A DNA stretch of 59,671 nt from Candidatus Bathyarchaeota archaeon (lineage in GTDB: Archaea > Thermoproteota > Bathyarchaeia > TCS64): contig JAFGHP010000053.1 of NCBI GenBank assembly GCA_016930055.1, positions 1-59,671 on the forward strand, read 5' to 3'. The notes under the pieces are model-generated. The model was not told the origin of the DNA. It made no database searches and was given only the letters and a program-made list of their open reading frames with translations. The position numbers and the translations under genes were made by a program. The first letter of the stretch is position 1, and every line of letters begins with the position of its first letter. Of the stretch, positions 6,812 to 42,508 are shown piece by piece.

Positions 6812-7025
6812 TTTAAATCAATCAGTTTTCGATTATTATAAATTGGATAAAGTAATCCGATGCATTGAATCTTATAAAACTGTCGCGTTACTATAAAATT
6901 AGGATATTTTAAATAACAAATTATTTAAATAGTTTCTAGTTTAAAATTTATTTAAAAGAATTTTTATTATTCAACTCTATAACAATATAAACTCTTAATA
7001 TTCCCACATCTAAATATTGTTTCTT

Positions 7026-7495: not shown

Positions 7496-7616
7496 TTACT
7501 AAAATTGTAACTAAATTGACTCCCATTTTACACATAATAATCCTATTTAAAATAATAATATAAATAACTTAAAATTTTTAATAGAACCCCAACTTCTTTA
7601 CTGTTGGTTGAATAAT

Positions 7617-17213: not shown

Positions 17214-17224
17214 GTGATGATAAA

Positions 17225-18795: not shown

Positions 18796-18800
18796 TTAAA

Positions 18801-19169
18801 ATGCCTTTAAAAGATCTTTTAAAACCTTTTAAAACTTTAAAAAATATTAGCAAAAAACCTATGACCTTAGTTTTTCCAAAAGAATCTTTACCTCCAACAG
18901 AAAATTATAGAGGAAGGCAACTTCTTGATGTAAATAAATGTATAGGCTGTGGAATGTGCTCAAGGGTTTGCCCGAATGATGCCATAAATATGGTTGATTT
19001 TATGAATAAAAAATGTCCTCAGATCCACCTTGGTAAATGTTGCTTTTGTGCTTTATGTGCTGAAAACTGTCCTACAAATGCACTAACGATGACAAATCAA
19101 ATATTTATTGCAGGTTATGATAGATTCTTTGCTGTATATGATCCAGAAAAATTGTCGAAAAATGAATAG
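18801..19169 (+). CDS. NuoI-like 2[4Fe-4S] ferredoxin subunit
   Basis: A 122-residue ferredoxin-type subunit. Clusters are ligated by CIGCGMCSRVCP and CCFCALCAENCP. It should carry electrons from soluble ferredoxin or another donor to the NuoB-like subunit. The ATG at 18801 is preferred: AGGTGA sits five bases upstream, and the GTG at 18792 lies inside that site and overlaps the end of the NuoD-like gene. It is the last gene of the cluster; no NuoH or NuoL membrane subunit follows. Confidence 0.87.
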   Translation: MPLKDLLKPFKTLKNISKKPMTLVFPKESLPPTENYRGRQLLDVNKCIGCGMCSRVCPNDAINMVDFMNKKCPQIHLGKCCFCALCAENCPTNALTMTNQIFIAGYDRFFAVYDPEKLSKNE

Positions 19170-24843: not shown

Positions 24844-26233
24844 ACAAATAGTGATTAATCCATTAACAAGACTTGAAGGAACTGGAAATGTTAAAATCGA
24901 AGTTGAGTCAGGAAAATTAAAAGATCTTCAACTTACTATTGCCGTAGCGCCTCGTTTTTTTGAGTATCTACTTCTAAATAAACCCGCAGAAGATGCTCCT
25001 AGAATATCAGAACGTATATGTGGTATCTGCTATGTTAACCATCATCTAGTTTCAGTCAAAACAATTGAAGATGCTTGGGGAGTAACAATTCCAGAAGTAG
25101 CTACTTTATTAAGAAGAACATTAAATGCAGCAAGTTTTATCACTAGTCATACATTACATTTAGCTTTTTTAGCTCTTCCTGATCTAATTCCAATTAAGAA
25201 CAGAAATATAGTAGGTGTTGCTGAAACTTTACCAGATATAGCTGATGCAGCACTTAGACTACACGAATATGGTAACAAAGTTGTATCAGAAATTGGGGGG
25301 AGGATCGTTCAAGTAGTAACTGCTGTTCCTGGTGGAATGACAAAAGGTTTGACAGGTGAAATCAGATATAAACTTCTTCGTGAAGGTAGGATGGCTTTAA
25401 ATAATGTAAAAAAATTCGCTGATACAATTTTTAATATTTATGAAAATCGCATAAATGACCCCTATGAATATATGGGTTTAAAGGTCCCATACTTAGGTTT
25501 AGTAAATTCTAAAGGCGAATACGAAATATACGATGGGGATCTTAGAATAAAGGGAAATAATGGCAATATTTTACTACAAATTCCGCCACAAGAATATTAT
25601 AAATATTTTGAAGAAACTTCTAGTGGACATAGCTTTACTAAAATAACTTATCTTAAAGAAATGGGTAAAAAGACTGGTTTAAATCGTGTTGGTCCTTTGG
25701 CAAGGATTAACGTAGTTGATGGTTTTAAATGGCAAGTTTCCACTGAGTATTTAAAAAGTTATTCAAAATTATTTAAAAGGCCTTCTGATGATACTGCAGC
25801 TTATAACCTCGCTAGAACTATTGAACTTGTAGCTTCTGTAGAAGAAGTTCTTGAAGGATTAGCTAATGATATAATTACCTTAGAAAGAACACGAATACCT
25901 GTTAAATCTAAAGAGGGGTGGGGGTCAGCATTTACAGAGGCTCCAAGAGGATTATTACACCATACTTATGAAACAGATGCAAATGGAATAATAAAAAACG
26001 TAAATATCGTTGCACCTACAACTTTTAATCATAAAAGTATTGAAAATAATATTCGCATTTATGCAGAACATAATATTGATGGTTTAATTTCAACAGATAA
26101 ACGATCTGATGTTTTATGGGGTATAGAAAAAATTGTAAGAGCTTATGATCCTTGTTTAAGCTGCAGCGTCCATATGGTTGAAATTGATCTAACAATAGAT
26201 GGCGAAAAGACAATTGACAGGGGGTCTAAATAA
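24836..26233 (+). CDS. mvhA: Group 3-type [NiFe]-hydrogenase large subunit, MvhA-like
   Basis: Catalytic subunit, 465 residues from the ATG at 24836, which has GGAGG seven bases upstream; a TTG at 24821 is less likely. Both metal motifs are intact: RICGICYVNHH (Cys62, Cys65) and DPCLSCSVH (Cys440, Cys443, His446). A 19-residue tail after His446 is probably removed by an endopeptidase during maturation. It oxidises H2 (or evolves it) and passes electrons through MvhG and MvhD to HdrA. It overlaps mvhG upstream and the first HdrA fusion by one base downstream. Confidence 0.92.
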   Translation: MNEQIVINPLTRLEGTGNVKIEVESGKLKDLQLTIAVAPRFFEYLLLNKPAEDAPRISERICGICYVNHHLVSVKTIEDAWGVTIPEVATLLRRTLNAASFITSHTLHLAFLALPDLIPIKNRNIVGVAETLPDIADAALRLHEYGNKVVSEIGGRIVQVVTAVPGGMTKGLTGEIRYKLLREGRMALNNVKKFADTIFNIYENRINDPYEYMGLKVPYLGLVNSKGEYEIYDGDLRIKGNNGNILLQIPPQEYYKYFEETSSGHSFTKITYLKEMGKKTGLNRVGPLARINVVDGFKWQVSTEYLKSYSKLFKRPSDDTAAYNLARTIELVASVEEVLEGLANDIITLERTRIPVKSKEGWGSAFTEAPRGLLHHTYETDANGIIKNVNIVAPTTFNHKSIENNIRIYAEHNIDGLISTDKRSDVLWGIEKIVRAYDPCLSCSVHMVEIDLTIDGEKTIDRGSK

Positions 26234-28563
26234 TGGGATCTTTAGTAATTTTGGACACTTTTGGTGAGACTTTAAAAGAAAAACTTGATGTTGATTCAAT
26301 TGAAGAGTATGCTAAAAAACAAGAAAATGTCTTAGTTACTTATCAAACTCACCGTTTAAATCAAAATATTATGAGTGAGTTAATTAGAGAGGTTCAAGAA
26401 AAAAACGGAATAGACTCTTTAAGCAACGTAATAGTGTTAACCGGTTCAAGAGTCCGTCTGGAAATTCCTTTGAAAAAAGCTATGGAATCTGCTGGTTTGG
26501 ATCCTAATTTATTAGTAATGTCTAATATACGAGAACAAGCTGCTTTAGTTCATAATTTCTCAGAGGCTACTGAAAAAGCAAAAGCTTTGTTAAGAATTGC
26601 TTTAGTTAAAGCAAAGAATGCTACTCCTGTTGAAAGGAAAGTAATTCAAAGATTTAATGAAGTTTTAATTATTGGAGGAGGAGTGGCTGGTATTCATGCT
26701 GCCCTTGACTTAGCTAAACTTGGTTTAATGGTCCATCTTGTTGAAAGAGAACCAACCATTGGTGGCTTAATGCCTCTTCTTGGAAAAACTTTCCCTGAAG
26801 ATACATGTGCTATTTGCATCGGTGGTCCCAAGATGGCGGATGTTGGTAATGAACCTAACATAGAAATATTGGATTATAGCGAAGTTGAAGCAATTATCCG
26901 TTTACCTGTTGGTTATAGAGTGCATATTAAAAGAAAACCGCGTTATATTGATCCAGAAAAATGTGTAGCTTGTGGACAGTGTACTGAACGTTGCCCCGTT
27001 TCTGTTTTAGATGAATATAATGGTGGCATTAGTTTAAGGAAATCTGTTTATTTACCCTATCCTAACGCTGTACCACGGAAACACCTAATTGATGAATCAT
27101 CATGCCTTTACTTGACAAAAGGTAGTTGTCGTTTATGTGAACGTGTTTGTCCTAATCAGGCTATTGATTTTAACCAGAAAGTCACTTACAAAGATCTGTA
27201 TGTAGGCTCTATTATTGTAGCTACTGGTATTGATAATTTCGATCCTAAACCATATCCACGTTTTGGTGCACAATATCCAAATGTAATTGATCAATTTCAA
27301 TTGGCTCGTTATCTTGATGGTGAAGGACCAACTTCAGGCATATTAACTAGACCAAGCGATGGTAAAAAACCTCAAAAAATTGTAATGGTGCAATGCGCTG
27401 GTTCAAGAGATCCTGAACTGAATCCCTATTGTAGTCGATATTGTTGTATGGCTGCTATGAAACATGCTCAAGAAATTAAGGTTAATCAGGGAGGTGATAT
27501 TGAAATCACTATTTTATTCAAAGATATTCGTGCAGGTGGAAAATACTATGAAGAATTCTACAATAGAATCAAAAATTTGGGAATTAACTTTATTTATGGT
27601 AATTTTAAGGAAGTTAAGCAATCTGATGATAAATTATTTGTAGAGTATATTGATGGTCAAGATAAAAATAATGTCTTAGAAAGTGATTTAGTAGTACTTT
27701 CAACTGGTATGATTCCAAGTCGTGGAACTCAAGAATTGGCAGAAAAACTTGGATTAGAAATAGACAAATATGGATTTTTTGATGAAGTAGATATTAAAGT
27801 AGCTAGTACAATTACTAAAAATCCAGGTATTTTTATTGCAGGTGCATGTCACGCCCCAAAAGATATTCCAGAGTCTGTTGCACAAGCAAGTGCAGCAGCA
27901 GCTATGGTAGCCACTTATTTAATGAAAGAAATTGATGCTTCTAAACCTATTCTCACACCAATTGTAGACCCTGAAGTTTGTGGTAGATGTGGTGTTTGTG
28001 TTGATCTATGTCCATATAATGCCATATCTATGCCACCGGAAGGACCTGTTGTAATAGATGACATCTTATGTCAGAGTTGTGGATTATGTATCTCTAGTTG
28101 CCCAACAAGAGCTCTTGATAACTCTAACTTTGGGTTCGATTCACTTATGGATCAAGTTAAAGCAGCCCTTAAAGATAATTCTGAACCTAAAATTATTGGT
28201 TTTGCTTGCAATGATTGTGGCTATAGACTTTTAGATGCTGCAGGTTTTTATAATTCTAAATACTCGTCAGCATTCATACCAATTTATGTTCCATGTATGA
28301 GTTTAGTTAGTTTACGACATATTACTAGTGCATTAGATCTTGGTGCTAAAGGAGTAATGTTGATCGGATGTTTGGAAGATCGGTGTCATTATCATAAAGG
28401 AGTAGATCATGCTGAAACTCAGCTCAAAATTCTAGAAAATATCTATAAATATTTTGGAAGACAGATGCCAATTCGGGTTTTAAAGAGCTGTGGTTCTATG
28501 CTTGAACAATTTTTAACGGAATTGGATTCTCTTACAACAGAAATTTTGGAGGTAAAACAATGA
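26233..28563 (+). CDS. HdrA-MvhD fusion lacking the N-terminal HdrA cluster
   Basis: A 776-residue heterodisulfide-reductase A homologue fused to MvhD. FAD domain begins at VLIIGGGVAGIHAALDL (residue 144), with TCAICIGGPKM following. Ferredoxin clusters lie at CVACGQCTERCP (244-254) and near the end (CGRCGVCVDLCP, CQSCGLCISSCP). The last 120 residues are an MvhD [2Fe-2S] domain (CNDCGYRLLDAAG, GCLEDRCHYHKG). The N-terminal domain has none of the four Cys that ligate a cluster there in canonical HdrA and in the next gene. It probably forms a complex with that paralogue and the Mvh-like hydrogenase. HdrB and HdrC are absent from the window. Confidence 0.88.
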   Translation: MGSLVILDTFGETLKEKLDVDSIEEYAKKQENVLVTYQTHRLNQNIMSELIREVQEKNGIDSLSNVIVLTGSRVRLEIPLKKAMESAGLDPNLLVMSNIREQAALVHNFSEATEKAKALLRIALVKAKNATPVERKVIQRFNEVLIIGGGVAGIHAALDLAKLGLMVHLVEREPTIGGLMPLLGKTFPEDTCAICIGGPKMADVGNEPNIEILDYSEVEAIIRLPVGYRVHIKRKPRYIDPEKCVACGQCTERCPVSVLDEYNGGISLRKSVYLPYPNAVPRKHLIDESSCLYLTKGSCRLCERVCPNQAIDFNQKVTYKDLYVGSIIVATGIDNFDPKPYPRFGAQYPNVIDQFQLARYLDGEGPTSGILTRPSDGKKPQKIVMVQCAGSRDPELNPYCSRYCCMAAMKHAQEIKVNQGGDIEITILFKDIRAGGKYYEEFYNRIKNLGINFIYGNFKEVKQSDDKLFVEYIDGQDKNNVLESDLVVLSTGMIPSRGTQELAEKLGLEIDKYGFFDEVDIKVASTITKNPGIFIAGACHAPKDIPESVAQASAAAAMVATYLMKEIDASKPILTPIVDPEVCGRCGVCVDLCPYNAISMPPEGPVVIDDILCQSCGLCISSCPTRALDNSNFGFDSLMDQVKAALKDNSEPKIIGFACNDCGYRLLDAAGFYNSKYSSAFIPIYVPCMSLVSLRHITSALDLGAKGVMLIGCLEDRCHYHKGVDHAETQLKILENIYKYFGRQMPIRVLKSCGSMLEQFLTELDSLTTEILEVKQ

Positions 28564-30965
28564 GTGATAATAATGAGCTTAGAATAGGTGTTTTCGTATG
28601 CAGATGTGGTTTAAATGTAGCTAAAAGTGTTGATACTACATCATTAGTTGAATATTCTTCAAATTTACTTGGTGTTATTTATGCTGAGGAAATTGAGTTC
28701 GCGTGTAGTGAAATAGGATTAAAACAAATAAGCGAATCTATAAGGGATAACAAAATTAATAGAGTAGTAATAGCTGGATGCTCACCTTGGCTTCATGAAA
28801 AAACATTCCAACGTATGATGGAACGCGTTAAACTCAACCGATATCTTCTTGAAATAGCTAATATCCGTGAACAAGTAGCTTTTCTTTATTCTAACCAGAT
28901 ACTGAAAGCAACTGAGAAAGCTAAATTTATTATAAATGCTGCTGTCGAACGTGTAAAAACATTAGAAGAAATTGGTAGAAAAAGTGTACCAATTCAAAAA
29001 TCTGTGCTAATTATTGGTGGAGGAGTAGCAGGAGTTGAAGCAGCGAAACGTTTAGGTGATTTAGGAATAGAAGTATACCTTATCGAGAAAACACCTTTCA
29101 TTGGTGGGCACGCACTTCAACTTGGTTCTGTTTTCTCTACAGAGGATTGTGGAACATGTGTCTCCCCATGTGAAAATGAACTTCATAGAAGATGCTTTTA
29201 TAGAAACACAATCTCTTTTCACCCTTATATCAACATAATGACATCAACAGAATTAAAAGAAATTAATGGACATATTGGAGACTATAAAGCAACTTTGACT
29301 ATAAAACCACGTGGCGTAAATCAAGAACTTTGTATGGGATGTAATAAATGTGAAGAAGCCTGCCCTGTTGAAATACCTGATCCATTTAATTTTGGTCTGA
29401 GTAAAAGAAAAGCGATTTATATTTTAAGCGATCAAGCTCTGCCTAGAATTTATGCTATAGATCCAGCTACTTGTATAAAATGTAATAAATGTAGTGAAAT
29501 ATGTCCTGTTAACGCTATCGATTTATCAGAAGAAACACGTGAAGTAACAGTTGATGTTGGTGCTGTTTTAGTCACTACTGGTTTTGAATCATTTAATCCA
29601 GAAGGGCTTTATACATATGGAGAAAATCCGGATGTAATAACTCAGTTACAATTAGCTAGAATGCTTGATATGAGTGGTCCCACGAAAGGTAAAGTGATTC
29701 GTCTAAGTGATGGTGTTGAACCTAAAAGAATTGCTATGATTCAATGTGTTGGTTCAAGAGATCCAAAAATCCACGAGTATTGTAGTAAAATTTGTTGTGG
29801 GATTGCTGTAAAACACGCTACAGACATTATGGAGAGGTATCCTGAATCAGGTTTAGCTATTATCAACAAAGATATTCGTTTGACTGGGAAACATTATGAG
29901 GATTATTATTATAGGGCAAAAAATTTGGGGGTGCGTCTTCTACGTGGTGAAGTTCAACAAGTAATAAAAACTGATAATAATGATATCAGACTTGAAATAA
30001 TTGATGAATTTGGTGAACATAAAAATCTTTATGTTGATATGCTAGTACTTTCAACTGGATTAGAACCTTCTAAAGGAACAAAAGAACTAGCAGAAATTCT
30101 TCGTATTCCCTTATCTCCTGACAGCTTTTTTGCTGAACGCGGACCAAAATTAGAACCGTTAGATACTGTTGTAGATGGAATCTTTATTGCTGGGGCATGT
30201 CACGGTCCTAAAGACATACAAGAAAGTATCACTCAAGCTTTAGGTGCAACTAGTCGGATAGCTAGTATCCTAATTAAAGGAGAGATGGAAATAGACCTAG
30301 CTAAAGCTTGGGTTGATGAAGAAAAATGTGTAGGATGTGGAGCATGCGCATCAATATGTCCTTTTAAAGCAATAGAATGGAGTGCTTTCGGTGAACCAAA
30401 AATAATTGAGGCTGCTTGTGAGGGGTGTGGTATATGTGCAGCAGTCTGTCCTGTATCTGCAATGCAATTAAGGCACTATAAAGATGATCAATTGATTCCT
30501 AAAATTAAAGCAATTATGACACCAAAATGGCTTAGTGAAGAAAAGATAGATGAACCTGTTATTATCGCGTTTGCGTGTCAATGGTGTAGCTACGCTGCTG
30601 CTGATGCTGCTGGTAACATGGGTCTTGAATATCCAGAGAATATTCGAATAATCAGAGTGCCATGCACAGGAAGAATTGATGCTCTACACATAATATCAGC
30701 ATTCAAGAATGGGGCTGATGGTGTGATAATTAGTGGATGCTTACCCACACAGTGCAACTACTTAACAGGGAATTTAGAAGCCATTGATCGGGTTGATATA
30801 ATGAAAAAAACTTTGGACGCTCTAAAAATTGGTAGTGAAAGACTTGAAACAATATTTACTTCAGCTTGTATGCCCACTTGGTTAGTAGCTTTATTTACAG
30901 ATTTCACCGAACGGATTAAAAAATTAAATGAAAAACAAAAAATTGTTATCGAACAAATACCTTAA
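28560..30965 (+). CDS. HdrA-MvhD fusion, complete type
   Basis: An 801-residue paralogue of the preceding protein, overlapping it by four bases, with GGAGGT before the ATG. The N-terminal domain keeps the HdrA cysteines (VCRCG at 14-16, Cys49, Cys74). FAD motif IIGGGVAGVEAAKRL starts at 151. DCGTCVSPCENE follows, then ferredoxin motifs CMGCNKCEEACP and CIKCNKCSEICP, a late pair CVGCGACASICP and CEGCGICAAVCP, and a C-terminal MvhD domain (CQWCSYAAADAAG, GCLPTQCNYLTGN). HdrA bifurcates electrons from H2 to ferredoxin and a disulfide in methanogens. The final acceptor here is unknown since HdrBC are not nearby. Confidence 0.9.
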   Translation: MSDNNELRIGVFVCRCGLNVAKSVDTTSLVEYSSNLLGVIYAEEIEFACSEIGLKQISESIRDNKINRVVIAGCSPWLHEKTFQRMMERVKLNRYLLEIANIREQVAFLYSNQILKATEKAKFIINAAVERVKTLEEIGRKSVPIQKSVLIIGGGVAGVEAAKRLGDLGIEVYLIEKTPFIGGHALQLGSVFSTEDCGTCVSPCENELHRRCFYRNTISFHPYINIMTSTELKEINGHIGDYKATLTIKPRGVNQELCMGCNKCEEACPVEIPDPFNFGLSKRKAIYILSDQALPRIYAIDPATCIKCNKCSEICPVNAIDLSEETREVTVDVGAVLVTTGFESFNPEGLYTYGENPDVITQLQLARMLDMSGPTKGKVIRLSDGVEPKRIAMIQCVGSRDPKIHEYCSKICCGIAVKHATDIMERYPESGLAIINKDIRLTGKHYEDYYYRAKNLGVRLLRGEVQQVIKTDNNDIRLEIIDEFGEHKNLYVDMLVLSTGLEPSKGTKELAEILRIPLSPDSFFAERGPKLEPLDTVVDGIFIAGACHGPKDIQESITQALGATSRIASILIKGEMEIDLAKAWVDEEKCVGCGACASICPFKAIEWSAFGEPKIIEAACEGCGICAAVCPVSAMQLRHYKDDQLIPKIKAIMTPKWLSEEKIDEPVIIAFACQWCSYAAADAAGNMGLEYPENIRIIRVPCTGRIDALHIISAFKNGADGVIISGCLPTQCNYLTGNLEAIDRVDIMKKTLDALKIGSERLETIFTSACMPTWLVALFTDFTERIKKLNEKQKIVIEQIP

Positions 30966-31944: not shown

Positions 31945-33348
31945 TTATTGTAAAATGCCTTTTTTTGATAATATATATTGATGCATTGATTTTGCAGCTA
32001 GTTTTCCAGCTCCCATTGCACTTATTACTGTTGCAGCTCCACTTACTACATCTCCCCCAGCAAATACTCCGGGAATCTTTGTCTCCATAGAATCTTCATT
32101 TACTATTATTGTTCCATGTCTCGTCGTTTCCAAACCTTGGGTAGTCTGTTGTATTATTGGATTTGGTGACTGTCCAATAGCAATTATTGCAGTGTCTAAT
32201 TCTATTGTAAATTCGCTTCCAGGTATTGGTTCTGGGCGTCTTCTTCCACTTGAATCTGGTTCACTAAGTTTCATGTGGATGCATTCTACTTTCTCTAAAA
32301 ATCCTCTTGAATTCCCAATAAATCTAATTGGATTTGTTAAAAACTCGAAATGTATTCCTTCTTCCTCAGCGTTTTCTACTTCTTCGATTCTTGCAGGCAT
32401 TTCATCTCTTCCACGCCTATAAATAATGTTTGATTGTTCTGCTCCAAGTCTCAACGCACAACGAGCAGAGTCCATAGCAACATTGCCTGCTCCTATTACT
32501 CCTACGCGTTTACCGACTCTTATAGGAGTATCATATTCAGGGAATTTGTATGCTTTCATTAAGTTAGTTCTTATGAGAAATTCATTAGCAGAATAGACAC
32601 CTTTCAAATTTTCTCCTGGAATTATCAAAAAATTTGGTAAACCTGCTCCAGAGCCAATAAATATTGCGTCATATCCATCATCAAAAAGTTCTTGTATAGT
32701 AGCTAATCTACCGATGGTTGAATCTAATTTAATTTCAACACCTAAGCTGTTAACATACTCCACTTCATATTGTACGATTTCTTTGGGAAGCCTGAATTCA
32801 GGGATTCCGTACATAAGTACCCCACCAGCAGCGTGGAGACTTTCAAAAATTGTTACTTTATGCCCGAGTTTAGCTAAATCCGCAGCTACAGTTAAACCAG
32901 CTGGTCCTGATCCGATTACTGCAACTCTTCCACCTTTAAATTGGATTTCCTGTTTTTCAATTTTTGAATATTTTCTTTCCCAATCTGAAGCAAATCTTTC
33001 TAGTCTCCCAATAGCTATTGGGTCTCCTCTAATTCCAAGAACACAATTTTTTTGGCATTGATCTTCTTGAGGACAAACTCTTCCACATACTGCAGGTAAA
33101 GAATTTTTTTCTTTAATCTTTTTAGCTGCTGAAATATAATTTCCTTCTTTAATTAATTTTATAAACTCTGGTATTGGTACTTCAACAGGGCATCCTTTGA
33201 CACATTGTGGTTTAGGGCAATTTAAACATCTTGAAGCTTCTTCTAAAGCCATCTCAGCATTGTAACCAATAGCAACCTCATCAAAATTTTTAATTCTTTC
33301 ATTTGGCTCCTGCCTTGGCATATCAACTTGGCTTTTTATTGCAGTCAT
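31945..33348 (-). CDS. nfnB: NfnB / GltD-like FAD-NAD(P)H oxidoreductase large subunit
   Basis: A 467-residue subunit of NADH-dependent ferredoxin:NADP+ oxidoreductase (also called sulfide dehydrogenase subunit alpha). N-terminal Fe-S motifs are CLNCPKPQCVKGCP and CGRVCPQEDQCQKNC. FAD motif VIGSGPAGLTVAADLAKLG, NADP motif VIGAGNVAMDSARCALRLGA with IIYRRGRDEMPA, and IPGVFAGGDVVSGAATV follow. Nfn bifurcates electrons between NADPH, NADH and ferredoxin. NfnA ends two bases upstream, so the pair is one operon. It can alternatively act as a glutamate synthase-like subunit, but no GltB is present. Confidence 0.9.
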   Translation of the reverse strand: MTAIKSQVDMPRQEPNERIKNFDEVAIGYNAEMALEEASRCLNCPKPQCVKGCPVEVPIPEFIKLIKEGNYISAAKKIKEKNSLPAVCGRVCPQEDQCQKNCVLGIRGDPIAIGRLERFASDWERKYSKIEKQEIQFKGGRVAVIGSGPAGLTVAADLAKLGHKVTIFESLHAAGGVLMYGIPEFRLPKEIVQYEVEYVNSLGVEIKLDSTIGRLATIQELFDDGYDAIFIGSGAGLPNFLIIPGENLKGVYSANEFLIRTNLMKAYKFPEYDTPIRVGKRVGVIGAGNVAMDSARCALRLGAEQSNIIYRRGRDEMPARIEEVENAEEEGIHFEFLTNPIRFIGNSRGFLEKVECIHMKLSEPDSSGRRRPEPIPGSEFTIELDTAIIAIGQSPNPIIQQTTQGLETTRHGTIIVNEDSMETKIPGVFAGGDVVSGAATVISAMGAGKLAAKSMHQYILSKKGILQ

Positions 33349-33350
33349 TT

Positions 33351-34166
33351 TTATACTCCTTCATAAAGAACCATAGCTATTTTCTCATTGGGGTTATAGA
33401 ACCTCATACGAGAAATTAATTCATCAAAATCTACTTGATGCCCATCAAAATCTGGCCCATGCACACAAGCAAACCTAGTAGTATTCCCTACAGTGACTCT
33501 GCAAGCTCCACACATTCCAGTTCCATCAACCATAATTGGAAATAAGTTCACTGTAGTAGGAATATTATATGATTTAGTGTATTCAGAAACTATTTTCTGC
33601 ATGCTAGTTGGACCCATAGTAAAAACATGGTCAAACCTTTTTTGCTGTAAAATTTCTTTCAGGAATTCTATTCCTTGGCGACCCTCTGAACCATCATCAG
33701 TAGCTACATAAAAATCATCTGAATATTTTCTAGCTTCATCAATTAATATTAAACGGTCTTTACTTCTTGCACCAATTATTGTTGTAATATTATTTCCAGA
33801 ACCCTTTAGAACTTTCATTTGAAATAAAAGTGCACCAACCATTACACCCCCACCAACGCACAAAATATTACCATAATCTTTTGTATCTGTCGCGTTACCT
33901 AGAGGACCTGCGAGATTAAGAATCGATTCGCCTTCATTTAATTTACCTAATAATATACTAGATTTTCCCACCTCAGCAAAAATTAATTGAATGGTTCCTT
34001 CATCCTTATTTGAATTAGATATAGTGATAGGAAACCTTTCCCCTTTTTCATGAATTCTAATAATTACAAATTGTCCTGGTTTAGTTTTTTTGGCAACAGC
34101 AGGCGCTTTAACTTCAATTAACTTAATATTAGGTGAAAGGGCTTCCTTATGAACGATTTCGTACAT
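33351..34166 (-). CDS. nfnA: NfnA / ferredoxin-NADP reductase-like small subunit
   Basis: A 271-residue PyrK/SudB-type flavoprotein. KKTKPGQFVIIRIHEKGERFPITISN is the FAD-binding FNR motif, and ILCVGGGVMVGALLFQM the NAD-binding region. A C-terminal [2Fe-2S] motif (GMCGACRVTVGNTTRFACVHGP) matches NfnA. Together with NfnB it forms the bifurcating transhydrogenase NfnAB, which balances NADH, NADPH and reduced ferredoxin. It is the first gene of the two-gene operon; glutamate dehydrogenase, an NAD(P)-linked enzyme, precedes it in the same direction. Confidence 0.9.
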   Translation of the reverse strand: MYEIVHKEALSPNIKLIEVKAPAVAKKTKPGQFVIIRIHEKGERFPITISNSNKDEGTIQLIFAEVGKSSILLGKLNEGESILNLAGPLGNATDTKDYGNILCVGGGVMVGALLFQMKVLKGSGNNITTIIGARSKDRLILIDEARKYSDDFYVATDDGSEGRQGIEFLKEILQQKRFDHVFTMGPTSMQKIVSEYTKSYNIPTTVNLFPIMVDGTGMCGACRVTVGNTTRFACVHGPDFDGHQVDFDELISRMRFYNPNEKIAMVLYEGV

Positions 34167-34282: not shown

Positions 34283-35632
34283 TTAAGCGTATGTACCTTG
34301 AGCAATCATTGCATCAGCAACTTTTAAGAAGCCTGCAATGTTCGCACCCATTACGTAGTTACCCGGTTTACCGAATATTTTTGCTGTTTCATAAGCTGCT
34401 TTATGAATATTTACCATGATTCCATGTAATTTTTCGTCAACTTCGTCAAAGCTCCAGAAGTAACGTTGACTGTTTTGAACCATTTCTAGTCCACTTGTGG
34501 CTACTCCTCCAGCATTGCTTGCTTTACCTGGAGAGAATAATACACCTGCTTCTTGGAGTGTTTTTATTGCTTCAAGATCACATGGCATGTTTGCGCCTTC
34601 AGTTACAGCAATTACTCCATTGTCTACAAGGGTTTTAGCATCTTTTCCTAGTAATTCGTTTTGTGTTGCACATGGAAATGCGAGGTCTGCTTTAACTCCC
34701 CAAGGGGTCTTTTTTGCTTCATAAGTTACTCCACTGTATTTTTCTGCATATTCTTTGATTCTTCCTCTTTTTACATTCTTTAATTGAAGGATATACGCAT
34801 GTTTTTCATCATCGATTCCTGCTGGATCATAAATGTATCCATCACTGTCACTCATTGTTAATACTTTTGCGCCAAGTTGAATTAATTTTTTAGCAGCAAA
34901 TTGAGCTACATTTCCTGACCCTGAAATTAAAGCTGTTTTACCTTTTATTGCATGATTTTTGGTCTTCAACATTTCTTCAGAGAAATATACTGCCCCAAAT
35001 CCAGTTGCTTCTGTCCTCGCTAAACTACCTCCATATACCGGTGCTTTTCCTGTTAATACACAAGTCCCATGTATATCTGTGATTTTTCTATATGTACCAT
35101 ACATATAGCCAATTTCACGTGCACCAACACCAATATCACCAGCAGGAACATCTAAAAATTGCCCAATGTGTTTGTACATCTCTAAAATAAAGCTTGTACA
35201 AAACGATTCCACTTCGTCATCTGTTTTCCCTTTAGGATCGAAATCTGAACCACCTTTAGCACCACCCATTGGTAAACTTGTTAAACTGTTTTTGAATGTT
35301 TGTTCAAAACCTAAAAACTTCATTACTCCAAGATTTACAGTCGGATGGAAACGGAAACCACCCTTATATGGTCCAATTGCACTATTATATTGAACACGAT
35401 ATCCCCTATTTACTTGAATTTTGCCTTCCTTATCTTTCCATGGAACACGGAATTGAACAATTCTTTCTGGTTCAACAATTCTCTCAAGAATGGCATTTTC
35501 CTTATACTTTGGGAATTTAATAATGGCGGGTTCTATTGTGGCTAAAACTTCGTATGTGGCTTGGTGGAACTCCTTCTGGAGTGGGTCCTTCTCAACTATA
35601 CCATTGTAAATACTCTCAACATATTTATCCAA
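34283..35632 (-). CDS. gdhA: Glutamate dehydrogenase, bacterial/NADP-type length
   Basis: Hexameric GDH, which interconverts glutamate and 2-oxoglutarate plus ammonia. Catalytic segment GGFRFHPTVNLGVMKFLGFEQTFKNSL and PMGGAKGGSDFDPKGK (active-site Lys), with GDIGVGAREIGYMYG and the cofactor motif SGSGNVAQFAAKKL. At 449 residues with an N-terminal extension (ESIYNGIVEKDPLQKEFHQ...) it resembles the bacterial NADP-type GDH rather than the ~415-residue archaeal type, which hints at horizontal transfer. The TTG start at 35632 has GAGG about six bases upstream. Beside nfnAB, it links ammonia assimilation to NADPH supply. Confidence 0.93.
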   Translation of the reverse strand: MDKYVESIYNGIVEKDPLQKEFHQATYEVLATIEPAIIKFPKYKENAILERIVEPERIVQFRVPWKDKEGKIQVNRGYRVQYNSAIGPYKGGFRFHPTVNLGVMKFLGFEQTFKNSLTSLPMGGAKGGSDFDPKGKTDDEVESFCTSFILEMYKHIGQFLDVPAGDIGVGAREIGYMYGTYRKITDIHGTCVLTGKAPVYGGSLARTEATGFGAVYFSEEMLKTKNHAIKGKTALISGSGNVAQFAAKKLIQLGAKVLTMSDSDGYIYDPAGIDDEKHAYILQLKNVKRGRIKEYAEKYSGVTYEAKKTPWGVKADLAFPCATQNELLGKDAKTLVDNGVIAVTEGANMPCDLEAIKTLQEAGVLFSPGKASNAGGVATSGLEMVQNSQRYFWSFDEVDEKLHGIMVNIHKAAYETAKIFGKPGNYVMGANIAGFLKVADAMIAQGTYA

Positions 35633-36027: not shown

Positions 36028-37944
36028 ATGGATCAAGAGCTACTTATTGCATTAACTATAGGCGCTCCAACCCTTGCTGGTTTAGGGTGCTTAATATTAA
36101 ATGATAAAATTGCTCGTAAAGTTATCGTAAGTTTATCAGCAATTTTGCTTATCGGTTCCTCTTTTATATTATTTAATGGTGGTGGTTTTAGTTATGAACC
36201 TAACTCAATTTTAGATACATTAGTCTTATTTTTTGATTTAATGTTATTAGTTTATTTTTTTTATGTTGGTATAAAATTTAAAAATATTTTAGTTATCGGG
36301 CTTTCTCTTTTACAATTATTACCTGTATTATATTTTGAATTTATACTTCATGGAGTTGAAGGAACCCCAACTTTCCTTATTGATGAACTTAGTCTTTTAA
36401 TGAGTCTTATTATTAGTATTGTTGGTTCTGTAATAGTAATTTATGGTTTAAATTATATGGATGAGCATGAAGAGCATTTGCATATTCAGAAAAGTCGTCA
36501 AAACCGCTTTTTCTTTTTTATGTTGCTTCTTCTTGGTGCAATGCATGGATTAGTTTTTTCAAATAATCTTTATTGGTTGTATTTCTTTTGGGAAATTACA
36601 ACTCTTTGTAGTTATGAATTAATAAGACATGATGGAACTGAAATTGCTATTAAAAATGGTATTACTGCGTTATGGATGAATTTAATTGGTGGAGTAGCTT
36701 TCGTCTTAACCTTGTTTATTGGTTATTATTATTTTAACTCTATAGCAATAGACGAAATTTTAAAAATGTATCAGAGTCCAGTTGTTTTATTATTTTTAGC
36801 GGTATTATCCTTCGCTGCATTCACGAAATCTGCGCAGTTTCCCTTTAATAGTTGGTTACAAGGTGCTATGGTTGCGCCTACTCCCGTTTCTGCATTACTT
36901 CATTCTAGCACCATGGTTAATGCGGGTATTTATTTAATCTTAAGAATTGCACCAGCATTAAATAATTCAGCACTTAGTTATAGTATTGCACTTGTTGGTG
37001 CTTTTACTTTTTTAACTAGTGCGATTTTAGCTCTTAATGAAAGAGTATCGAAAGGAATCTTAGCTTATTCAACAATTGGTAATTTAGGATTAATCTTCTT
37101 ATGTATAGGAATAAATACTCCTCTGAGTTATGCTTCTGCTTTAGCTCTTTTAATTTTTCACTCTGTATCGAAGGGTTTACTTTTCTTATGTGCTGGTGTT
37201 GTGGAAAATAGAGTTCATAGTAGATTAATTGAAGATTGGGAAGGATTAATCAGGAGACTTCCAGCTACGAGTATAATAATGATAACTGCGATGTTGAGCA
37301 TGTTCTTGCCTCCTTTTGGGATGCTTCTGGGTAAATGGGTCGCAATAGAAGCTCTTTCATCTTCATATTATATTTCATCGATGCTCATTATTCTTTTATT
37401 AGTCCTTGGAAGTGCTGCAACTTCCGTTTATTATATTAAATGGTTAAGTTACCTTACTGTATTACCATTAGATGGTAAAAACTTTGAAAGTGAAAAAATC
37501 CCATGGTCTTATGTTATTTCCTTGTTAACTTTATTTGGTTTAATAATAATAATGGGTACAGGCGTTTCTTCAGTATTTAATCTTTTAATATTACCAACTT
37601 TACCTTCAAATTATTATACAAATATCGATGCTAGTATAATTAATTTAAATACTGGTATTGGAAGTTTTGTGACTTATCCACTATGGTTAATAATTGCAGC
37701 AATGGTTTTCTTTGGTTACACATTATCTAAAAGAAAAGGGGGAACAGTTAAACCACCTTATTTAAGCGGAGAAAATGTAGTGGACGATCCTACTGTTTTC
37801 CATACTACCGCTGATGGAATAGCTAAAATTGAAGTATCTGCTCAATTTTTTGAAAACGAATTTAGTAATAACCGTTTATTGGTTTTGTCAAAAATTTTAG
37901 GATCAATAATTATTATGTTACTGTTTTTCGCGGTGATGTTGTGA
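36028..37944 (+). CDS. echA: EchA-like antiporter-type membrane subunit (NuoL/MrpA family)
   Basis: First gene of the membrane hydrogenase operon: 638 residues with about 14-16 hydrophobic helices. The proton-channel residues typical of NuoL/MrpD are visible: Glu in YFFWEITTLCSYE and Lys in FAAFTKSAQFPFNSWLQGAMVAPTPVSALLHSSTMV. It should pump H+ or Na+ when electrons flow through the peripheral arm. Only one antiporter-type subunit is encoded, as in Ech rather than Mbh, which carries Mrp-like extras. The stop overlaps the next gene (TGATG). Confidence 0.9.
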   Translation: MDQELLIALTIGAPTLAGLGCLILNDKIARKVIVSLSAILLIGSSFILFNGGGFSYEPNSILDTLVLFFDLMLLVYFFYVGIKFKNILVIGLSLLQLLPVLYFEFILHGVEGTPTFLIDELSLLMSLIISIVGSVIVIYGLNYMDEHEEHLHIQKSRQNRFFFFMLLLLGAMHGLVFSNNLYWLYFFWEITTLCSYELIRHDGTEIAIKNGITALWMNLIGGVAFVLTLFIGYYYFNSIAIDEILKMYQSPVVLLFLAVLSFAAFTKSAQFPFNSWLQGAMVAPTPVSALLHSSTMVNAGIYLILRIAPALNNSALSYSIALVGAFTFLTSAILALNERVSKGILAYSTIGNLGLIFLCIGINTPLSYASALALLIFHSVSKGLLFLCAGVVENRVHSRLIEDWEGLIRRLPATSIIMITAMLSMFLPPFGMLLGKWVAIEALSSSYYISSMLIILLLVLGSAATSVYYIKWLSYLTVLPLDGKNFESEKIPWSYVISLLTLFGLIIIMGTGVSSVFNLLILPTLPSNYYTNIDASIINLNTGIGSFVTYPLWLIIAAMVFFGYTLSKRKGGTVKPPYLSGENVVDDPTVFHTTADGIAKIEVSAQFFENEFSNNRLLVLSKILGSIIIMLLFFAVML

Positions 37945-38822
37945 TGTTAGAAAATATATCTCTTAATACAATATTCTCAATAGTTCTAATCTTCTGTGCA
38001 CCAATAATTGGAGGATTTTTAATGGGAATTGATAGAAAATTGACTGCAAGAATGCAAAGTAGAATGGGTCCTCCAATAATTCAACCTTTCTACGATGTGA
38101 TTAAATTATGGGGAAAGGAACCCTTTATATCAAGTACGTTACAACCAATTTTGGCTTTCTGTTATTTTGGTTTTAGTTTAACTTCTTTTGCCCTTTTAGC
38201 TTTGGGTCAAGATCTACTTCTTATAATCTTTACTTTAGGTATAGCTGATTCGTGTTTGATTATTGCTAGTTTAAATTCAAAGTCACCTTATAGTGTTCTT
38301 GGCGGTAAAAGAGAGTTATTAAGTATTATGAGTTACGAACCTGTACTTTTACTCACTGCTATTAGTATTTATTATGTTACAGGAAGTTTTATGGTTGCTA
38401 GAATATTTTATCTAAGTTATCCCTTAATTTCTTATTTGCCCTTAGTTTTTATTGCTTTAATACCCGTACTTGTTATTGACTTAAAAAAATCTCCTTATGA
38501 TGTATCCGCTTCTGGACATGCACATCAGGAACTTGTCCGAGGTGTATTCACGGAGTTTAGTGGTTATTCACTTGCATTAATAGAGTTAGGTCATTGGACT
38601 AAAGTTGTTATGATGTTAAGTTTGGTTAGTCTTTTCTGGGCTACAAATCTAATAATAGGTATATGTTTAGCTTTAGTTTTATTCTTTATTGTATTAGTTA
38701 TTGATAATGTTTATCCAAGGCTTGACTGGAAATCTATGTTAAAAACGACTTGGTCTATTGGAATTATTTTGATTATAGCTAATATTGTTGGATTAATTGC
38801 CCGGGTGGTGATGCATATATGA
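37944..38822 (+). CDS. echB: EchB-like membrane subunit (NuoH family)
   Basis: A 292-residue membrane protein with about eight helices. MGIDRKLTARMQSRMGPP is the NuoH signature after the first helix, and FYDVIKLWGKEPF follows it. AHQELVRGVFTEFSGYSLALIELGHW carries the acidic residues that line the quinone/proton path in this family. It connects the hydrogenase arm to EchA. I prefer the ATG at 37944, which has GGTGA seven bases upstream; a GTG just before it is also in frame. Overlaps both neighbours. Confidence 0.9.
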   Translation: MLENISLNTIFSIVLIFCAPIIGGFLMGIDRKLTARMQSRMGPPIIQPFYDVIKLWGKEPFISSTLQPILAFCYFGFSLTSFALLALGQDLLLIIFTLGIADSCLIIASLNSKSPYSVLGGKRELLSIMSYEPVLLLTAISIYYVTGSFMVARIFYLSYPLISYLPLVFIALIPVLVIDLKKSPYDVSASGHAHQELVRGVFTEFSGYSLALIELGHWTKVVMMLSLVSLFWATNLIIGICLALVLFFIVLVIDNVYPRLDWKSMLKTTWSIGIILIIANIVGLIARVVMHI

Positions 38823-39259
38823 AAACAATGACTAAAGCCAGACTCAAATCTCCTTGGGTACTGCATTTCGATTGTGGTAGTTGTAATGGGTGCGATATTG
38901 AGATTCTTGCAGCTTTAACACCAAAATTTGATGCAGAACGTTTTGGTATTGTGAACATTGGTGATCCAAAACAAGCTGATATGTTACTAGTTACAGGTCC
39001 AAGTAATAAAAGAAATCAAAGAGTATTAAAAAACCTTTATGAACAGATGCCAGAACCGAAAGTTGTTGTAGCTATAGGCGAATGTGCCTGTACTGGAGCT
39101 ATCTTCCATAACTGTCCCAACACCAATGGAGGGATAGACAAAATTATTCCTGTAGATGTATATGTTCCAGGCTGCGCAGCTAGACCAGAACAAATTGTTG
39201 ATGGTATTGTTTTAGCATTACAAAAACTAGCTGAAAAAAGTGAAAAAGAGGCTGACTAA
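38819..39259 (+). CDS. echC: EchC-like [NiFe]-hydrogenase small subunit (NuoB/MbhJ family)
   Basis: A 146-residue small subunit with the full ligand set for the proximal [4Fe-4S] cluster: CGSCNGCDIEIL (Cys22, Cys25), GECACTGAIF and VPGCAARPEQ. This contrasts with the degenerate NuoB-like protein at 16788, to which it is otherwise similar in sequence. It should pass electrons between the ferredoxin-like EchF and the [NiFe] site. It overlaps echB by four bases; a short gap separates it from the fused EchD-GltD gene. Confidence 0.92.
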   Translation: MKTMTKARLKSPWVLHFDCGSCNGCDIEILAALTPKFDAERFGIVNIGDPKQADMLLVTGPSNKRNQRVLKNLYEQMPEPKVVVAIGECACTGAIFHNCPNTNGGIDKIIPVDVYVPGCAARPEQIVDGIVLALQKLAEKSEKEAD

Positions 39260-39260
39260 A

Positions 39261-41054
39261 TTGGAATTACAAAAATTTGAACTTAAAAGCAAAATAGATA
39301 ATATAAACATCTCTACTAAAGATCTTTTAATAAAATTAAATGAATTAAAAAATCAAAATGCACGATTCTTAACAATTACAACTTTAGATCATGGTGATGC
39401 AGTTGAATTAATATACAATTTTGAAATAGGTATTGATGTATTAAATATACATTTAAGAATTCTTAAAAAAGATCTTATTCCAAGCATAACTTCCGTTTTT
39501 CCTGCTGCTTTTATTGCAGAAAATGAGGTGCAAGATCACTTTAAAGTACAATTTTCAGGAATAAACATTGATTTAGGCGGTAAATTAGTTATACCTGAAA
39601 ATTCTCCTATGAATTTACTTAAACCTGAGGAAGGTCCAGAACCTCCAATAATGCGATTTTTTGGGAGATGTCGTGAACAATGTCCAAGCATGGTCAATGC
39701 GCCAAAATACATAAGAGAAATTGCTAAAGGTGATCCTGTAGCCGCTTATAATACTGTACTAGAAAACGCTGCTTTACCTGCATGCTTAGGAAGGGTATGT
39801 TTTGCCCCTTGTCAAGAAGGATGTCGTCAAGAAAGAAATGATGAACCTATTCAGATCCGATTACTAAAAAGATATGCAGCAGATAATACTCCCTCTCTTA
39901 AAAGTAAATTCAAGCGATCAAAATTAACTGGTAAAAAAATCGCTGTTATCGGGGGAGGTCCTAGTGGTGTAGCATGTTCCTTCTATCTTGGTTTAATGGG
40001 TTATAGTGTAACACTTTATGAAAAAAACGAAAGATGTGGTGGAGCTATGTTATGGGGTATTCCTAAATATAGATTACCAAAGAATGTTCTAGAATTAGAA
40101 ATTCAAACAAGATTAGATGAAGCTGGAGTAATTTTAAAAACAAATACTGAAATAACAGACTTAAAACCCTTGTTAAAAGAATATGATGCAATTTATATCG
40201 CTCTTGGTGCTTCAGGTAGTTCCAAACTAATGATTGAAGGAGAAAATACTCCAGGCGTTTATGATTTCCGTGATATTTTACACAGTGTAAATGTAGAAAA
40301 TAAGACGCCAGATTTAGGCAAAGTAGTGGCAGTAATTGGTGGAGGAAATAGCAGTATAGATGCTGCACGTGTATCAAAGAGACTTGGTGCAGAGAGTGTC
40401 ACAATGTATTATAGAAGAACTGAAAAAGAAATGCCTGCATCACCTCATGAGATCCAAGGAGCTACTGTTGAAGGAGTTAACTTCGAATATTTAGTTACCC
40501 CAATTAAAATAATTCCCGGAAAACCCTTGAAATTAATGTTACAGAACATGAAATTAGGTGAACCTGATTCAAGTGGAAGAAGACGTCCAGAACCGATACT
40601 CGGAAGCGAGTTTATAGTTGACGTTGATTCTATCATAACAGCTATAGGTCAAACCGTAAGTACTCCTCCTAATTATGGACTTGAAGTTACTCGTTATGGT
40701 ACTATTGTTGTGAATGATGATTATGAGACCAGTCTGAAAGGTGTTTACGCAGGTGGTGATGTTGTTTTCGGACCAAAAAGCGTCATTGAAGCATTACGTG
40801 ATGGTAAAAAAGCAGCATCAATAATCGATAAATCATTTAATGGAGAAGGGTGGCCTGAACCAGAACTTTCCATGGATGAATTTGTTGCTCGACCATATAA
40901 TTTAGAAGAAATAAAGATGCAAGAAAAAGTTGATTGCCGCGAATTATCACCTGAAGTAAGAATTACTAATTTTGATGAAGTTGAACTCGGATTCGATAGA
41001 GAAGAAGCACTTCGTGAAGCTAATCGATGTTGGAGATGTGATTGGAATGAGTGA
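39261..41054 (+). CDS. EchD (NuoC-like) fused to a GltD/NfnB-like FAD-NAD(P)H oxidoreductase
   Basis: About 597 residues. The first 125 are a shortened NuoC/EchD domain (LDHGDAVELIYNF, FPAAFIAENEVQDHFKVQFSG). The rest is a full GltD-type module: Fe-S cysteines CREQCP and CLGRVCFAPCQEGC, FAD motif VIGGGPSGVACSFYLGLMG, NAD(P) motif VIGGGNSSIDAARVSKRLGA with YYRRTEKEMPA (Arg pair suggesting NADPH), GVYAGGDVVFGPKSV and a final NRCWRCDWN. In ordinary Ech hydrogenases EchD is the NuoC domain alone. The fusion sits in the operon position of echD, between echC and echE. TTG at 39261 has GAGG eight bases upstream; a GTG at 39240 is an alternative. The gene ends by overlapping echE. Confidence 0.88.
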   Translation: MELQKFELKSKIDNINISTKDLLIKLNELKNQNARFLTITTLDHGDAVELIYNFEIGIDVLNIHLRILKKDLIPSITSVFPAAFIAENEVQDHFKVQFSGINIDLGGKLVIPENSPMNLLKPEEGPEPPIMRFFGRCREQCPSMVNAPKYIREIAKGDPVAAYNTVLENAALPACLGRVCFAPCQEGCRQERNDEPIQIRLLKRYAADNTPSLKSKFKRSKLTGKKIAVIGGGPSGVACSFYLGLMGYSVTLYEKNERCGGAMLWGIPKYRLPKNVLELEIQTRLDEAGVILKTNTEITDLKPLLKEYDAIYIALGASGSSKLMIEGENTPGVYDFRDILHSVNVENKTPDLGKVVAVIGGGNSSIDAARVSKRLGAESVTMYYRRTEKEMPASPHEIQGATVEGVNFEYLVTPIKIIPGKPLKLMLQNMKLGEPDSSGRRRPEPILGSEFIVDVDSIITAIGQTVSTPPNYGLEVTRYGTIVVNDDYETSLKGVYAGGDVVFGPKSVIEALRDGKKAASIIDKSFNGEGWPEPELSMDEFVARPYNLEEIKMQEKVDCRELSPEVRITNFDEVELGFDREEALREANRCWRCDWNE

Positions 41055-42171
41055 AAACGTTAATACAAATAAAAAATATTCCGTATTACCTTTCGGTCCT
41101 CAACATCCCGTTTTACCTGAACCAATCCATTTAAAATTCATTGTTGATGAAGAAAAAATAATAGATGTTTTACCTAATCTTGGTTATGTTCATCGAGGTA
41201 TAGAACGTGGATGTGAATTAAATGACTATAAAAGAAACATTTGGTTAACTGAACGTATCTGTGGGATCTGTAATTATATTCATGGAGCAACTTATTGTGC
41301 AGCAATTGAAAAAATTACTGATACTGAAGTACCAGTAAGAGCAAAATATCTTCGAACTATCTGGGGTGAACTTGGTAGACTACAAAGTCACTTATTATGG
41401 CTTGGTTTATTTGCAGATGCAATAGGTTTTGAAAGTTTATTTATGCAAATTTGGAGAGATCGAGAAATAGTTTTAACATTAAATGAAAAAACAAATGGTC
41501 ATAGAATACATTTAGCTACAAATATGATCGGAGGTGCAAGAAAAGATATCGATGATTCACTGGAAAATGAATACAAGAAAGATCTAAATCTACTACGTAA
41601 AAAAATGGATGCTTTGAAACCAGTTTTCTATAAAGATTCAGCGATAAAACAAAAATGTGAAGGTAAAGGCATCCTCTCGAAAAATAAAGCACGCTTTTTA
41701 GGTGCAACAGGCCCTACAATAAGAGGTAGTGGTCTTAAAGAAGACGCAAGATTAACTGGATATGAGGCTTATGGCCAACTAGATTTCAAGCCTGTAGTAT
41801 ATGAGGGTGAAGACTCTTATTCACGCATGTTAGTAAGATTTGATGAAGTTTTACAATCAATCGATCTAATTGAGAAGGCATTTGATCAGATGCCTGAAGG
41901 GCCAATTTTGAATAAAAATGATAAATTCCCAATGGGGCATACGGTAATAAGAACTGAACAGCCTAGGGGAGAAGTATTTTATTATGTTGAAGGAAACGGT
42001 ACAAATAAATTAACAAGATGTAAAATTAGGACTCCTACAGCTTCAAATATTCCTGCACTAATCAATATGCTAATTGGTTATGAAGTTTCAGATATCCCCA
42101 CTATTGTTCACAGTATAGATCCTTGTATAAGTTGTACAGAAAGAATAGTATATGTAAGGAGAAATGAGTAA
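41047..42171 (+). CDS. echE: EchE-like [NiFe]-hydrogenase large subunit (group 4)
   Basis: Catalytic subunit of 374 residues from the ATG at 41047. Both Ni-Fe binding pairs are complete: RICGICNYIHG (Cys72, Cys75) and DPCISCTER (Cys360, Cys363). Other group 4 features include PFGPQHPVLPEPIH, GYVHRGIERG and GATGPTIRGSG. There is only an 11-residue tail after the last Cys. It overlaps the fused EchD-GltD gene (ATGAGTGA) and the ferredoxin gene, so the operon is tightly coupled. It should reduce H+ to H2 with electrons from ferredoxin or, through the fusion, from NAD(P)H. Confidence 0.92.
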   Translation: MSENVNTNKKYSVLPFGPQHPVLPEPIHLKFIVDEEKIIDVLPNLGYVHRGIERGCELNDYKRNIWLTERICGICNYIHGATYCAAIEKITDTEVPVRAKYLRTIWGELGRLQSHLLWLGLFADAIGFESLFMQIWRDREIVLTLNEKTNGHRIHLATNMIGGARKDIDDSLENEYKKDLNLLRKKMDALKPVFYKDSAIKQKCEGKGILSKNKARFLGATGPTIRGSGLKEDARLTGYEAYGQLDFKPVVYEGEDSYSRMLVRFDEVLQSIDLIEKAFDQMPEGPILNKNDKFPMGHTVIRTEQPRGEVFYYVEGNGTNKLTRCKIRTPTASNIPALINMLIGYEVSDIPTIVHSIDPCISCTERIVYVRRNE

Positions 42172-42508
42172 AATGCCTAAAATGCTTAAAGAAGTAATAA
42201 AGAACCTTTTATCACCACCTGCAACTGTAAATTATCCCTTTGTTAAACCAACACCTGTACCAGGAACTCGTGGTGCTTTAAATTGGGATATGTCTAGATG
42301 TGATCAATGTCAAGACTGTGAACGTGTTTGTCCTAGCGTAGCAATTAAAGTGTATCCTGAAGAGAAAAAAATTGAATATCAGCCATTTAAATGCTTATTC
42401 TGTTATCTATGCATAGAAAATTGTATGCAACAAGCTATCTCTGGTAGTGATATTGTTGCTGAACCAGCTTACACAAAAATTGTGAAAGTTTTTAAAACTG
42501 AAACTTAA
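42164..42508 (+). CDS. echF: EchF-like 2[4Fe-4S] ferredoxin subunit (NuoI family)
   Basis: Last gene of the Ech-like operon, about 111-114 residues. Clusters: CDQCQDCERVCP and CLFCYLCIENCM. It resembles the NuoI-like protein at 18801, including the N-terminal PKMLKEVIKNL versus PLKDLLKPFKT, which suggests the two clusters share ancestry. The ATG at 42173 is eleven bases after AAGGAG; the ATG at 42164 is only two bases from it, so the start is ambiguous. The gene ends seven bases before a convergent stop. Confidence 0.88.
   Translation: MSKMPKMLKEVIKNLLSPPATVNYPFVKPTPVPGTRGALNWDMSRCDQCQDCERVCPSVAIKVYPEEKKIEYQPFKCLFCYLCIENCMQQAISGSDIVAEPAYTKIVKVFKTET

Follow-up and report, generated by a model that had tools for sequence, protein, structure and literature searches.

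An EchD-GltD fusion in a group 4 [NiFe] hydrogenase operon of Bathyarchaeia: a predicted NADP(H) port on an energy-converting hydrogenase

Introduction

Ech hydrogenases are regarded as ferredoxin machines. To our knowledge, the EchD subunit of Ech bears no NADP(H) flavoprotein module, and we know of no biochemical demonstration of direct NADPH/H2 exchange by a member of the energy-converting hydrogenase class. Group 4 hydrogenases tied to other electron partners include the HdrB-linked Ehd, Ehe, Drh and Ehg enzymes of Methanomethylicia, Culexarchaeia, Methanocellales and Nezhaarchaeia (PMC9723716), and Mbh-Bfu, which was predicted for Dehalococcoides and whose subunit BfuG has an unexplained flavin site (PMC9304861).

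On the flavoprotein side, a close described relative is StnC of the StnABC complex from Sporomusa ovata. The flavin of StnC is non-bifurcating and passes the electrons of NADPH to a linear Fe-S chain. The cluster proximal to FAD is ligated by lysine 170, which is strictly conserved and replaces the glutamate found in NfnB, whereas C114 lacks strict conservation. A formate-dehydrogenase-like domain of StnC has lost catalysis and is kept for assembly (PMC10482914).

In the open-licence literature searched, no description of a fusion between NuoC and GltD was found, and the main text of a study on archaeal fusions makes no mention of one (PMC11237513). Such a fusion is described here from the hydrogenase operon of a Candidatus Bathyarchaeota archaeon.

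Results

The hydrogenase operon

The window, i.e. the whole stretch of 59,671 nucleotides that was analysed, is a contig of a 1.79-Mb, 111-contig Bathyarchaeia assembly that is 94% complete. Six genes on its forward strand (36028-42508) overlap or abut one another in the order echA-echB-echC-[echD-gltD]-echE-echF, which is the classic Ech order echABCDEF (Table 1). The fusion occupies the place of echD between echC and echE, as the initial annotation of the sequence had stated, and its stop codon overlaps the echE start in a shared ATGA. A stand-alone small EchD, typical of classic Ech, is not encoded; the subunit is fused to a GltD-like module in every orthologue.

Ligands of the L1 and L2 motifs, together with NuoB-, NuoI-, NuoH- and antiporter-like subunits encoded in one operon, mark the predicted enzyme as a group 4 [NiFe] hydrogenase. 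EchE carries RICGICNYIH (L1) and DPCISCTER (L2), its NiFe ligands C72, C75, C360 and C363 are invariant in the fusion operons, and among PDB entries it matches MbhL (238 bits) and HycE (215 bits) best. The ligands of the proximal [4Fe-4S] cluster in EchC (C22, C25, C89 and C119) are all invariant as well, which bears out the earlier reading that the metal motifs of both subunits are complete. The same constancy applies to the eight cluster cysteines of EchF and, across the fusion operons, to E189, K267, H378 and K382 of EchA. EchB is encoded at the same position in every fusion operon whose contig reaches this gene. A HypD maturation gene is present. Profile searches revealed no homologue of NfnA, NuoE or NuoF among the six genes, and the operon, consisting of these six only, contains neither a second echD nor bfuABC genes.

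Table 1. Coordinates of the fusion gene, its domains, the other operon genes and neighbouring genes in the window; residues of the fusion protein are counted from GTG 39240, here and in the text
Feature	Position	Strand	Basis
echD-gltD fusion gene (likelier start)	39261..41054	+	Frame plus orthologue alignment
NuoC/EchD domain, residues 24-108	39309..39563	+	Complex1_30kDa PF00329, E 3e-7, above gathering score
Linker, residues 109-142	39564..39665	+	Low confidence in AF2 model
Fer4_20, residues 143-217, N-terminal part of two-cluster Fe-S domain	39666..39890	+	PF14691, 1.5e-21
FAD- and NADP(H)-binding Rossmann folds, residues 233-535	39936..40844	+	PF07992
Permuted C-terminal Fe-S tail, residues 571-604	40950..41051	+	Alignment to StnC/NfnABC up to about residue 566 of those
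echA, NuoL/Mrp-type antiporter-like membrane subunit, 638 aa	36028..37944	+	PF00361 3.6e-51, PF00662
echB, NuoH-like membrane subunit, 293 aa	37941..38822	+	PF00146 4.7e-44
echC, NuoB-like small subunit	38819..39259	+	PF01058 6.6e-31
echE, [NiFe] hydrogenase large subunit, 374 aa	41047..42171	+	PF00346, PF00374
echF, NuoI-like subunit	42164..42508	+	Two [4Fe-4S] 4-Cys motifs, profile match
NfnB-like subunit, canonical order	31945..33348	-	TIGR01316 611 bits; 4ylf_B 568 bits
NfnA-like subunit of separate transhydrogenase	33351..34166	-	NF004862, PF10418
NADP-specific glutamate dehydrogenase, divergent neighbour of ech operon	34283..35632	-	NF006929, 714 bits vs cut-off 536

Domains and cofactor residues of the fusion protein

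The open frame runs uninterrupted from GTG 39240 to TGA 41054 (604 aa). An in-frame TTG at 39261, which the initial annotation had taken as the first codon and which gives 597 aa, is the likelier start, because the ATG of the orthologues aligns there. The earlier claim of a NuoC-like subunit with a full FAD/NAD(P) module and Fe-S cysteines of its own is upheld by the Pfam domains, seven invariant cysteines and K210. Modelled alone with AF2, the NuoC part adopts the NuoC fold (mean pLDDT 76), and Foldseek matches this model to 30-kDa subunits of complex I, to MbhK and to MBS K. It is followed by a linker with pLDDT values below 50 for most of residues 109-137. Residues 143-604 form the GltD-like module, composed of Fer4_20, two Rossmann folds (the Pyr_redox_2 match covers residues 233-522, E 7.2e-35) and a C-terminal tail. 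The Rossmann folds carry the motifs GGGPSG, GGGNSS and YYRRTEKEMPA, all conserved in 16 orthologues. Profile searches found no Fer2/NuoG domain in the fusion protein.

The tail contains the invariant C597 and C600 within RCWRCDW. For this segment of the fusion, PEVRITNFDEVELGFDREEALREANRCWRCDWNE, the counterpart in NfnB is the N-terminal end, which reads ERIKNFDEVAIGYNAEMALEEASRCLNC in the NfnB encoded in the window itself, and the fused module is therefore circularly permuted relative to NfnB. Alignment of the orthologues defines the seven invariant cysteines as 144, 148, 187, 191, 195, 597 and 600, whereas cysteines 182, 246, 266 and 566 vary. By structural analogy with dihydropyrimidine dehydrogenase and NfnB, we take the outer cluster to be held by C597, C600, C144 and C195, and the cluster next to FAD presumably by C148, C187, C191 and residue 210. 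This residue, K210, is invariant in the 16 orthologues and aligns with K170 of StnC; at the position of StnC C114, the fusion proteins have A, I or V.

Affinity of the GltD-like module

The module had initially been described as GltD/NfnB-type. GltD-like holds; NfnB-type does not, as the module branches with StnC-like proteins in the GltD tree, is permuted and has K210 in place of the NfnB glutamate. In this tree, the GltD parts of the fusions form one clade (row L048__607 being the fusion of genome G253), which groups with StnC-like NuoG-GltD proteins, apart from the NfnB of the window. That protein, whose gene pairs with its own nfnA-like gene on the strand opposite to the ech operon, is thus ruled out as the source of the module. 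The top matches in profile and Foldseek searches are StnC (8oh5_C) and subunit A of NfnABC (9bov, 9n5u). These proteins and the fusion have in common the permuted domain order, a pair of cysteines that follows the Rossmann folds, and the lysine conserved in the StnC/Nfn-BfuA type.

Among the nearest tree relatives is a 716-aa NuoG-GltD protein of another Bathyarchaeia genome (G238, L061 6619-10729) with the domains Fer2_4, NADH-G, Fer4_Nqo3, Fer4_20 and Pyr_redox_2. A NuoF-like protein is encoded beside it, and a formate/nitrite transporter close by. The locus likely encodes a complex of the Stn/Nfn-Bfu type in Bathyarchaeia, related to the fused module.

Distribution and conservation

A search for NuoC-GltD fusions in further genomes, as the initial annotation had suggested, found the same join in 19. 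Sixteen of these are among the 257 Bathyarchaeia genomes searched (genera g1, g3 and g8 in f1, the family of the window, and g97 in f21). The remaining three come from a phylum sample and belong to family f30, where the fusion occurs in 3 of 22 genomes; all three bear mcrA and are presumably Methanomethylicia-type methanogens. Six public named relatives of the fusion, from a contig scan with exact peptide patterns that would overlook distant fusions and was the one scan to reach beyond Thermoproteota, are all assigned to Candidatus Bathyarchaeota. Hits in Clostridia, Elusimicrobiota and Thermotogota (L011-L018) were rejected as NfnB or other GltD proteins without other hydrogenase genes.

In Bathyarchaeia and f30 alike, the fusion sits between echC and echE in every locus whose contig extends that far; three loci (G207, G250 and G206) are interrupted by contig ends. 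Among the fusion loci, no orthologue was seen with the NuoC and GltD domains on separate genes, an arrangement that had been named beforehand as counter-evidence. Misassembly or read-through at the domain join is excluded by its recurrence in 19 genomes, including one assembled as a single 2.3-Mb contig (G233). In G233, no NiFe large subunit other than EchE of the fusion operon exceeds the Pfam cut-off, and H2 would thus be reached there mainly through this complex. In another genome (G251; L056, L102), a second copy of the fusion end and echE lies on a different contig.

The 16 orthologues share 49-77% identity with the fusion protein of the window; their cofactor-binding residues are invariant, whereas other positions drift. 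EchE of the fusion operons is 59-82% identical to that of the window, compared with about 40-47% for the next comparable large subunits of Bathyarchaeia. The operons of the latter have either a separate NuoC in the order NuoB-C-D-H-I or no separate NuoC and a longer, NuoD-like large subunit of 520-560 aa. The 18 sequences from fusion operons form one clade (support 100/100, stem 1.0 changes per column) in a tree built from 59 large subunits. Since the f30 copies are placed among those of f1 in this tree, their branching suggests a transfer of the operon between the two families.

Other redox genes

The window contains further redox genes. A second set of NuoB, NuoC, NuoD and NuoI (16788-19169, +) lacks NiFe ligands and is Fpo/Nuo-like. 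No membrane subunits lie near it; in the same genome, contig C62 encodes four antiporter-type subunits. Directly upstream of the set come genes for a MenA-like prenyltransferase (14672-15565) and for a polyprenyl synthase (15668-16627). A group 3-type NiFe hydrogenase, small and large subunit, is followed by two differing HdrA proteins of 776 and 801 aa (23968-30965, +), each with a C-terminal FlpD/MvhD domain. At 4184-6811 (-), a GlcD-like FAD protein stands beside an Fe-S protein resembling TfrB/LdhH/DsrK, and the pair possibly represents a 2-hydroxyacid dehydrogenase.

Another contig of the same genome, C26 (L182), harbors a further group 4 hydrogenase operon (988-7551). It encodes a short GltD-like protein without the Fe-S part, a polyferredoxin, a membrane subunit, a NuoH-like protein, a fusion of NuoC and NuoD whose NiFe motifs are intact, NuoI and NuoB. 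Here, a group 4 hydrogenase is accompanied by a separate GltD flavoprotein that is not fused to it.

Discussion

A putative NADP(H) port on EchD

The operon probably encodes a six-subunit, membrane-bound, energy-converting [NiFe] hydrogenase with a two-way NADP(H) port on EchD. The initial annotation had proposed direct exchange of electrons between NAD(P)H and H2. This survives as the most economical reading, because a complete, conserved module is fused to a hydrogenase with intact metal sites; the path of the electrons, as we infer it, would be the following. NADPH would deliver a hydride to the FAD of the GltD-like module, from where electrons would pass one at a time to the first cluster (C148, C187, C191 and K210) and on to the second (C597, C600, C144 and C195), which is built from both ends of the module. 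The exit of the module would face the hydrogenase side, since this outer cluster draws its residues from the stretch directly behind the NuoC linker and from the extreme C terminus. From the second cluster, adjoining the linker, electrons would travel through EchF and EchC to the NiFe site of EchE, where protons are reduced to H2. EchB and EchA are predicted to couple this flow to ion movement. Family affinity and the RR motif argue for NADP as the cofactor over NAD. Ferredoxin may serve as a second, parallel donor at EchF, which keeps ferredoxin-type clusters.

All of these steps would be reversible. High H2 or the membrane potential could yield NADPH from H2, and low H2 would permit NADPH disposal, e.g. 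of NADPH from glutamate dehydrogenase, with few ions expelled. The standard potential of H2 is -414 mV. With an NADPH potential near -380 mV (PMC9304861, Table 1), our own arithmetic places the reaction from NADPH to H2 downhill below roughly 7 kPa H2. At 10 Pa H2, it would provide about 16 kJ/mol, enough for about one ion at most. Since this driving force is small, either direction is possible in the cell, and a useful pumping stoichiometry is not guaranteed.

Direction of electron flow

The same anatomy would suit a complex whose main flow runs from H2 or ferredoxin to NADP+, i.e. a biosynthetic NADPH generator driven by the membrane potential where needed. This direction is a tentative alternative that keeps some weight. 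It is in keeping with the three mcrA-bearing f30 genomes, because such methanogens are expected at higher H2, and with the sole NiFe large subunit of G233. Against it, two genomes have glutamate dehydrogenase as a neighbour, which points to NADPH disposal, and no feature of the sequence fixes the direction. This enzyme is a possible source of NADPH, and its neighbourhood was found in the window and G253 only, among the loci examined with their flanks. For these two, NADPH disposal in amino-acid fermentation is favoured by the presence of this divergent neighbour.

Confurcation, relic and other complexes

Flavin-based confurcation calls for two partners that differ in potential and for a flavin in a bifurcating environment. 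The initial annotation had advanced confurcation of ferredoxin and NADPH to H2 as a testable idea. On this reading, joint oxidation of the two donors at the GltD flavin would drive the formation of H2, with bifurcation as the reverse reaction. The homologue NfnB does bifurcate, and a ferredoxin-type EchF and an NADP(H) module are both present. The module is nevertheless of the StnC type, with K210 in place of the NfnB glutamate, and the StnC flavin is non-bifurcating (PMC10482914). Together with the lack of NfnA, NuoE and NuoF homologues and of a second flavin subunit in the operon, this signature makes the proposal improbable. Moreover, the potential of H2 lies between those of ferredoxin and NADPH, so coupling would be unnecessary and each donor could act alone.

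It appears just as doubtful that the GltD part survives as a relic with a structural or regulatory role and an inactive flavin domain, the complex being an ordinary ferredoxin-dependent Ech. The formate-dehydrogenase-like domain that StnC keeps for assembly offers a precedent (PMC10482914); against it, the cofactor-binding residues have stayed invariant in 16 orthologues at 49-77% identity, and the module accompanied the operon into a second family. Least probable is that the fusion protein is soluble or part of another complex, e.g. with the NfnA and NfnB encoded a few kb away on the opposite strand, and its operon place incidental, for the order C-[D-gltD]-E is unbroken wherever contigs reach, NfnAB adjacency is kept only in G253 among the loci examined, and the NuoC domain is a core subunit that binds NuoB/NuoD in relatives, in an operon with no other echD.

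Implications

The direct-exchange reading being preferred, we lean, by a slight balance, towards an undescribed subfamily in Bathyarchaeia and some methanogens that would couple NADPH, H2 and an ion gradient reversibly through the NuoC-GltD fusion, without ferredoxin and without bifurcation. It would be the membrane counterpart of soluble NADP-linked hydrogenases, with a StnC-type port at NuoC and not at NuoG. A conserved covalent NADP(H) port on Ech predicts an altered energy balance in uncultured sediment archaea and some methanogens, and NADPH-dependent, ferredoxin-independent H2 exchange would be expected in their membranes. The architecture of complex I would have a second plug-in site for a nucleotide module, NuoC rather than NuoG, which bears on how complex I gained its NADH arm. 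The fusion may also serve as a sequence marker for redrawing the redox maps of Bathyarchaeia.

Comparison with known systems

The likeness to classic six-subunit Ech rests on gene order and motifs: the order A-B-C-D-E-F, the NiFe motifs L1 and L2, NuoH- and NuoL-like membrane subunits and an EchF with two [4Fe-4S] clusters are shared, and the operon departs from Ech in the fusion of EchD to an NADP(H) flavoprotein module. The 11-subunit, Fpo-like Hfo of Bathyarchaeia is likewise a group 4 NiFe hydrogenase from the same archaeal class, but it has separate subunits in the order NuoB-C-D-H-I, from which the window operon deviates, several antiporters and no GltD (PMC7886697). Ehd, Ehe, Drh and Ehg also combine a group 4 core with a swapped electron partner (PMC9723716); there, adjacent genes encode the partner, a heterodisulfide reductase or another module, and no NADP(H) domain is attached to NuoC. 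The closest prediction is Mbh-Bfu, a membrane group 4 hydrogenase with a predicted tie to pyridine nucleotides, whose BfuG could be a parallel case; it is set apart through a nine-gene cluster with a bifurcating BfuABC (NADH and ferredoxin) that is absent here (PMC9304861).

The module itself resembles most closely StnC and the Nfn-BfuA proteins (StnABC of S. ovata, NfnABC of Thermococcus sibiricus and of Caldicellulosiruptor), with which it shares the permuted GltD, the C-terminal cysteine pair and the equivalent of K170. In the fusion, as in StnC, an NADPH-FAD port would feed an Fe-S chain. The partners differ: StnC has a NuoG domain in its chain and works for the soluble, bifurcating core StnAB, whereas the module of the window is joined to NuoC and thereby to a membrane NiFe hydrogenase.
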